Assembly: GCA_937120535.1 (NCBI GenBank)
Contig: CAKZJX010000136.1
Location: 1 to 64,000 of the forward strand
Direction: 5' to 3'
Length of the DNA: 64,000 nucleotides
Source of the DNA: an uncultured Anaerolineae bacterium
GTDB taxonomy: Bacteria; Chloroflexota; Anaerolineae; Anaerolineales; Villigracilaceae
Shown here: piece by piece, positions 23,668 to 26,274 of the stretch
How positions within the stretch are numbered: position 1 is the stretch's first letter
How the letters are laid out: every line of letters begins with the position of its first letter
Made by a program: the position numbers and the translations under genes
The notes under the pieces: model-generated
The model's input: only the letters and a program-made list of their open reading frames with translations
Told to the model about the DNA's origin: nothing
The model's database searches: none

Positions 23668-24147
23668 ATGTCTACCAAAGCGTTTCAGGATTACTATCCG
23701 GATTACTTTGCCGTATGCTATGGCTGTGGACGCCTCAACGAGCACGGCCTGCAGCTTAAGAGTTATTGGGACGGCGAGGAGACGGTCAGCTATTTTAAGC
23801 CCCAGCCCTATCATACCGCCGTGTCTGGCTATGTGTATGGCGGGTTGCTAGCCTCCTTGATAGATTGTCATGGTACAGGCACGGCCGCTGCGGCCGGCTA
23901 TCGTGCCGAAGGCCGCGAGATGGATACCGACCCCCCCTTGCGTTATCTGACGGCCTCGTTGCACGTGGAGTATCTTAAACCCACCCCTCTTGGACCAGTG
24001 TTGGAAGTGCGGGGACGGATCAAAGAGGTGAAAGGGAGAAAAGTGATCGTGGAAGAGTGGATCCTCGCCAACGGTGAGGTCACAGTGCGCGGCGAGGTGG
24101 TGGCGGTTCAGGTGCCGGAGCAGATGGTGAAGGAGTTGTTGCGCTAG
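23668..24147 (+). CDS. PaaI-family hotdog thioesterase
   Basis: CYGCGRLNEHGLQLKSYWDGEE, GYVYGGLLASLIDCHGTGTAAA. Confidence 0.85.
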   Translation: MSTKAFQDYYPDYFAVCYGCGRLNEHGLQLKSYWDGEETVSYFKPQPYHTAVSGYVYGGLLASLIDCHGTGTAAAAGYRAEGREMDTDPPLRYLTASLHVEYLKPTPLGPVLEVRGRIKEVKGRKVIVEEWILANGEVTVRGEVVAVQVPEQMVKELLR

Positions 24148-24189
24148 GAGAGCTCGTCCGATTCCTGTTCCCCTTAGTTGCTTACAAAG

Positions 24190-24361
24190 ATACCCCGCTG
24201 TTGCCGTGTGCAACCGAGTTTTGGACCTGCTTTCGCAGGTGGGCCCCGATCGGGAAACGCCGCCTTGGCTCAGGCCTATCGCGTTGTTTCCACGAAAAGG
24301 GGGGCCCTTGTTGTGGGTGTTGGCCCAAAACGTGATTGTTGCATCACGCGCACAGCAGGGC
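24190..24361 (-). ncRNA. Structured RNA with 6S-RNA-like architecture
   Basis: Long imperfect hairpin: closing stem 24193-24227/24322-24360, central bubble with ACCTGC-GAAA-GCAGGT hairpin (GNRA loop on - strand), terminal stem starting GGGCCCC/GGGGCCC (24241-24247/24301-24307). TGnTATAAG extended -10 (24373-24368) predicts a start at about 24361. Confidence 0.55.
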
Positions 24362-24456
24362 GTTATTCTTATACCATAAATTGGGCGGGGGCAATAGAGA
24401 ATTATGAGAGTTTTGAGGATAGGGTTTGGCCGGCGAGAGGCGCTCTTGAGGCCGGC

Positions 24457-26274
24457 TCAATCGACGCGCAGCAGATCACGCGCTTTTTCCACATACGCCA
24501 AGCTCTGATGGCGAAAGTACGTGTTGTACAGATCGGCATAATGGCCGCCTCGAGCCAACAATTGATCGTGCCTGCCCTCTTCGATGATGGCCCCTTTTTG
24601 CATCACCACGATCCGATCGGCTGCCTTGACGGTAGAAAGACGGTGAGCAATCAGGATGCTCGTCGCTCGTTGGAGGATCAAATTCAAGGCCTGTTGAATC
24701 TGCCACTCGGTGAACGGGTCAATGCTAGCCGTGGCTTCATCTAAGATGAAAATCGAAGGACGTTGGACGAGCACCCGCATCAACGCCACCAATTGGCGCT
24801 GTCCCATCGAAAGGCGGTTCCCGCGCTCGCCCACCTGGGTATCTAACCCATCGGGCAGGGTTTCCAGCCATTCTCCATCGCCGATCTGGCGCGCCAGGTG
24901 AAGGATGTAGGTGTCGGAGATGCCCGGGGCGGCGTAACGGATGTTTTCAGCCACCGTCCCGGAAAATAAGAAGGGGATCTGGGAGACGATTCCCAGCTGG
25001 CGACGGTAGGAGACCAAATCGAAGGTGCGAACGTCGCAGCCGTCCACGATCAGCGAGCCGGCCTGGAATTCGTAAAAGCGCGCGATCAGCTTGGCTACCG
25101 AGGATTTTCCAGCGCCAGTATGCCCCACCAAGGCGACCGTCTCGCCGGCGTGAATGGTTAGGTTGAAATCTTCTAGGACGGGTTCCCCCTCTCTGTATCG
25201 GAAGTAGACATGCTCGAAGCGGATCTCGCCTTTGAGGCGTTCGATAACCCGCGAGTCGATTTGAACCACGTTGGGATCGGCGTCGATCAAGGCAAAGACG
25301 CGCTCAGCGGCGGCTAGCCCAGATTGGATCTGGGCCCAGAACGAGGACAGGTTCATGATGGGGAACATGAAATTATCCAAGCTCAGCAGGAACAGATACC
25401 AGGCTCCGGCGGTGATCAGCCCCTCGCCGATCGCCTGGCCGCCTGCATAGACCAGGATAGCAATAAAGACGCCGCTCATGCCGTTCAGAATCGGGAACAC
25501 CAGTGAGAGCACCAGCCCGCGCCGCACGTTGACCTGATAAGACATGCGGTTTGCCTGATCGAAGGTAGCGTAGATGTTGTGTTCCTGGCGGAAGTTCTTG
25601 GCGATGGCAATGCCGCTGACGGTTTCTTTGATAGCAGCGTTGACATCAGCCATGGCCTGCATGCCGCGGCGGGTGACGCGCCGTGCCAGCCCGCGAAACC
25701 CAATGGCAAAGCCAAAAACCACTGGCAAGAAGGCGACCATCAACCAGGCCATGCGCAGCTCGATGCGGAACAGGATGATCCCCAGCAGGGTTGCCTGAAA
25801 GACCTGAGCGATCACGTCGGTCAGGATGACGACCAGTTGGCCGAAGTCGTTGGTGTCGGAGGTGATGCGCGAGAGGATGCGTCCGGAGGAGAACTGGTCG
25901 TAGAACGAAAGGTCGTGTTCGGCGGCGGCACGAACGGCATGTTCGCGCAATTGGAGTACGACATCGCCGACGGCACGCAACGTCAGACTGCGTCGCGCCC
26001 AGTTGAATCCCCAGTGGGCAACGCCGAGGATCAACATGCCGATGCCGATCAGGACGATCGCCCCGAGGGTGGGTTGTTCGCCCAGCGCGTCTACCACTCG
26101 ACCTACGAGGACCGGCAGAGCGGCGTTGAGTACGGAGAGCAGGATCACCAGCAGGGCGACTAGACTCAGCCGTCTGGCTTGGGGACGGAAATAGGCGGCA
26201 ATGCGCCGAGCTAGCTCTCGATCGGAGTATTGACGATCGTATGTTTCGAGGTTGAGGCCGGCAAAGAATCCCAT
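24457..26274 (-). CDS. ABC transporter, fused permease/ATP-binding (exporter type)
   Basis: Walker A GHTGAGKSSVAK, signature LSMGQRQLVALMR, Walker B IFILDEATASID, six TM helices. Confidence 0.94.
   Translation of the reverse strand: MGFFAGLNLETYDRQYSDRELARRIAAYFRPQARRLSLVALLVILLSVLNAALPVLVGRVVDALGEQPTLGAIVLIGIGMLILGVAHWGFNWARRSLTLRAVGDVVLQLREHAVRAAAEHDLSFYDQFSSGRILSRITSDTNDFGQLVVILTDVIAQVFQATLLGIILFRIELRMAWLMVAFLPVVFGFAIGFRGLARRVTRRGMQAMADVNAAIKETVSGIAIAKNFRQEHNIYATFDQANRMSYQVNVRRGLVLSLVFPILNGMSGVFIAILVYAGGQAIGEGLITAGAWYLFLLSLDNFMFPIMNLSSFWAQIQSGLAAAERVFALIDADPNVVQIDSRVIERLKGEIRFEHVYFRYREGEPVLEDFNLTIHAGETVALVGHTGAGKSSVAKLIARFYEFQAGSLIVDGCDVRTFDLVSYRRQLGIVSQIPFLFSGTVAENIRYAAPGISDTYILHLARQIGDGEWLETLPDGLDTQVGERGNRLSMGQRQLVALMRVLVQRPSIFILDEATASIDPFTEWQIQQALNLILQRATSILIAHRLSTVKAADRIVVMQKGAIIEEGRHDQLLARGGHYADLYNTYFRHQSLAYVEKARDLLRVD

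Follow-up and report, generated by a model that had tools for sequence, protein, structure and literature searches.

The intergenic region at positions 24148-24456 (309 bases) of the window, the whole 64-kb stretch of DNA that was analysed, lies between a thioesterase gene on the + strand and an ABC exporter gene on the - strand (Table 1). When the window was searched with Infernal against all of Rfam, the sole match was RF00013, the 6S RNA family, at 24364 to 24188 on the - strand. This match spans the full model (positions 1-187) and scores 66.5 bits (E = 6e-11), above the family's gathering score of 46.4 bits; no other Rfam family was matched up to E = 1. A reading of the region from its letters had proposed a 6S RNA here and a search of both strands with RF00013 as a check, and the full-length match upholds that assignment. 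The whole genome (3.1 Mb) holds a single copy. From the records in which the nearest relatives of the adjacent ABC exporter occur, the host is judged to belong to the Anaerolineales (Chloroflexota). 6S RNA is a well-known RNA that imitates an opened promoter and thereby restrains RNA polymerase.

Table 1. Features of the 6S RNA locus and its neighbouring genes (positions in the window)
Feature	Position	Strand	Remarks
Thioesterase gene	23668-24147	+	PF03061
ABC exporter gene	24457-26274	-	PF00664/PF00005
6S RNA gene, full RF00013 match	24188-24364	-	Likely RNA from about 24361 to about 24188
Extended -10 promoter TATGGTATAAG	24368-24378	-	Sequence; TGGTATA invariant in 47 of 49 homologues
Upstream element CTCTATTG	24392-24399	-	Weak form in the window; CCCTACCC in most relatives
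Closing stem, 5' strand	24322-24360	-	Inner part GUUUUGGGCC (24331-24322) adjoins bubble and pRNA template
Closing stem, 3' strand	24193-24227	-	Fold, forced-form energies, covariation
Central bubble, 5' side, AACACCCACAACAA	24308-24321	-	Predicted pRNA start is the C at 24319, by register with known 6S RNAs
Small 3'-bubble hairpin ACCUGC-GAAA-GCAGGU	24225-24240	-	GG in common with helix adjoining bubble
Terminal arm	24241-24307	-	Opens GGGCCCC/GGGGCCC; ends in conserved tip GCGATAGGC..GCCAAGGC (24282-24262)

Both the fold and the homologues give the predicted RNA a rod layout with a closing stem, an open central bubble and a terminal arm. The - strand from 24373 to 24186 folds to -89.9 kcal/mol compared with -59.6 +/- 4.2 kcal/mol for shuffled sequences (z = -7.2; 0 of 200 shuffles as stable), in agreement with the long imperfect hairpin that the sequence-only reading had described in the gap. 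All of its landmarks were recovered at, or one or two bases from, the places it had assigned them: the closing stem (24360-24322 with 24227-24193), the hairpin with a GAAA loop on the 3' side of the bubble (CCTGCGAAAGCAGG, 24239-24226) and the seven G-C pairs that open the terminal arm (GGGCCCC at 24307-24301 with GGGGCCC at 24247-24241). The near-palindromic nature of the element explains why the + strand, too, has a good fold (z = -5.3) and why a covariance model built for the clade gives a weak, mirrored + strand match of 27.6 bits. A 6S RNA on the + strand was rejected since RF00013 matches the - strand only.

One refinement of that earlier picture concerns the helix that adjoins the bubble, GUUUUGRGCC paired with GGUYCAAAAC. 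The GG at 24227-24226 serves the small hairpin but also the G-C pairs at the inner end of the closing stem, so that these two pairings are partly alternative. The two forms of the bubble differ by less than about 1 kcal/mol in the window's RNA, and forcing either form costs less than about 1 kcal/mol in most homologues; the RNA thus looks poised between both forms.

Covariation in related genomes, proposed as a further check, is strong. Across 49 homologues 95.6% of the cells are paired, and both-sided changes occur in 24 of 45 pairs (211 doubly changed cells), whereas sliding the 3' partner by 1-3 columns leaves 27.5-45.8% of the cells paired with both-sided changes in 10-14 pairs and 29-45 doubly changed cells; since the homologues were gathered with a 6S model that favours pairing, these figures support the structure but are not fully independent of the model. 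In the MAFFT alignment part of the outermost stem is shifted by one column in some rows, and the outer helix is consequently under-counted.

The gene is predicted to have its own promoter. The extended -10 that had been picked out from the letters, TATGGTATAAG at 24378-24368, is conserved at the predicted place in 47 of the 49 homologues. It ends at 24368, which puts the start of the RNA about seven bases farther on, near 24361, the position predicted before. The -10 hexamer begins 13-14 bases before CCCTGC in 43 of 47 homologues. Where TTGACA would be expected, the 6S promoters of the clade carry TTAATnTTTCCCTACCC, one T of which, 23 bases before the hexamer, is kept in 46 of 47. The conserved region at 24392-24408 on the - strand has counterparts upstream of 6S in most of the loci L003-L030 and L111-L129. 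Ordinary promoters of the form TTGACA-N16-18-TATAAT are present in the window's genome, with 21 perfect matches compared with none for the reversed control. The pattern CTACCC-N14-18-TGGTATAA occurs four times in eight genomes, once in each of four, and always just upstream of 6S. What is conserved there could be the preference of a sigma factor, a binding site for an activator or an upstream element rich in A/T. A bolder and rather unlikely proposal is that the 6S RNA of the Anaerolineales has a dedicated promoter type, combining the invariant extended -10 with TTAATnTTTCCCTACCC and perhaps served by a special sigma factor or activator.

The distribution of the gene was followed in 61 genomes drawn from the genus, family and order of the window's genome, which is itself one of the 61. 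RF00013 matches once in each of 53, and the clade model, built from 49 of these homologues, recovers four of the eight that were missed (G018, G044, G045 and G055); in G018 and G055 the 6S RNA is cut by contig ends. Even with the clade model and a search for the tip motif, G002, G021 and G042 gave no 6S match and G057 gave insignificant ones only, which could be due to real loss, strong divergence or an assembly gap. The assemblies of G002, a member of the same genus in 4 contigs, and of G057, in 2 contigs, reach about 96% completeness, yet neither has a significant match. In a sample drawn from across the phylum, all 30 of the same-order members listed (the window's genome among them) have an RF00013 match. 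The sample as a whole has matches in 76 of 299 genomes and is patchy outside the order, where the patchiness may represent true absence or an effect of the stricter filtering applied to large samples. G133, which belongs to the same class, has two matches (C4:337188-337363 and C5:648395-648571, with 51.8 and 33.5 bits), possibly indicating a second 6S RNA.

The genes adjoining 6S vary among relatives, and there is no fixed neighbourhood. Of the genes near 6S in the window, neither the thioesterase nor the ABC exporter, HutI or the CAAX protease was found within the stored 6S flanks of any relative, including those of the same genus, and the 6S tip motif was not found within the flanks of the best 80 ABC-exporter loci. 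A cluster of related open reading frames is common to 21 of about 52 6S loci, mostly just upstream and on the 6S strand. Two of its members that were run through Pfam are class II (D, K and N) aminoacyl-tRNA synthetases, which by their sequences are probably asparaginyl-tRNA synthetases. In many relatives (L003, L006, L024 and others) a gene of this asparaginyl type immediately precedes 6S on its strand, and the 6S neighbourhood in the window's genome is different from theirs. At other loci a GH25/LysM lysozyme or an Ada-like regulator with a methyltransferase domain is close by.

The bubble predicts a product RNA (pRNA), 5'-GUUGGCCCAAAAC, that is very similar to the pRNA of Bacillus subtilis 6S-1 RNA (bsrA), GUUCGGUCAAAACUA (PMC12005410). 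By the register of the family its start is the C of CCAAC, and in the window's genome it would read GUUGGCCCAAAACGUGAU. Most of the first 13 positions are conserved; positions 1-5, 8, 9, 12 and 13 are identical in at least 48 of 49 homologues. Release schemes that involve extended or short hairpins on the 3' side of the bubble have been described for Escherichia coli and B. subtilis (PMC8876501), and from these schemes and the B. subtilis pRNA we infer how the predicted RNA may be released. The rod with its open central bubble would imitate an opened promoter, bind the RNA polymerase holoenzyme that contains the primary sigma factor, and restrain the polymerase as growth slows. Upon the return of nucleotides, the polymerase would copy the short pRNA 5'-GUUGGCCCAAAACGUGAU from the 5' side of the bubble, and its synthesis would open the adjoining helix GUUUUGGGCC/GGUCCAAAAC. 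The GG released in this way could then complete the ACCUGC-GAAA-GCAGGU hairpin, and the RNA would release the polymerase. B. subtilis 6S-1 RNA likewise has a small hairpin in the 3' part of the bubble, which is present already in the free RNA (PMC8876501). The window's RNA differs in that its hairpin would be lengthened with the GG taken from the helix beside it, a behaviour nearer to the scheme given for E. coli (PMC8876501).

Almost certainly, the only 6S RNA of the organism is encoded here on the - strand, where it is transcribed from its own extended -10 promoter and works as a promoter mimic. Computation shows its identity, structure and promoter; that it binds polymerase, templates a pRNA and lets go of the enzyme is expected from its membership of the family. 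The RNA shares with 6S/SsrS RNA (RF00013) the full-length covariance-model match, the closing stem, central bubble and terminal arm, and the size; nothing differs beyond family variation, and the tip GCGATAGGC..GCCAAGGC is strongly conserved in the Anaerolineales clade. A relative of 6S that has changed its partner is conceivable, as the polymerase-binding RNA Ms1 of Actinobacteria, structurally related to 6S (PMC9130861), illustrates that 6S-like rods are able to do so (PMC9130861, PMC4191392). Polymerase binding is known for Ms1 and expected from the family for the window's RNA. Ms1 binds core polymerase, whereas the window's RNA passes the 6S model itself, with no hit to another family up to E = 1, and retains both the region that would template pRNA and the alternation of pairing in the bubble. 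That it now binds the polymerase core or some other form, rather than the primary sigma holoenzyme, is accordingly very improbable.

Convergent genes on both sides and the good fold of both strands would also suit a two-way terminator or another palindrome that has no RNA function of its own. This explanation is contradicted by the restriction of the full-length 6S match to one strand, by the conserved promoter and by the retention of homologues in quite different gene neighbourhoods, leaving it a negligible chance. Conservation through a protein is just as implausible. An open reading frame does exist on the + strand (24178-24744), but it overlaps the ABC exporter on the opposite strand, and the changes among homologues are compensatory for pairing while their lengths differ by one or two bases, which would break the frame. 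A protein-coding origin of the conservation, which had been named as grounds for abandoning the 6S assignment, was rejected for these reasons.

With the window's 6S RNA gene, a common and widely distributed gene gains a further well-founded example. According to PMC7726162, Wehner et al. (2014) had already recorded 6S RNA in the Chloroflexi, and the gene described here is thus an ordinary member of a known family. A search of the open-access literature found no paper on 6S RNA in the Anaerolineae, and the non-TTGACA upstream element shared by the 6S promoters of the order may be new. The find itself leaves unchanged what 6S RNA is. It adds to a largely uncultured class a well-supported 6S gene with a structure backed by covariation and a testable pRNA sequence, and the conserved upstream element offers a concrete lead on 6S control in the group. 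If a dedicated promoter type does exist, it would put polymerase sequestration under a clade-specific switch.
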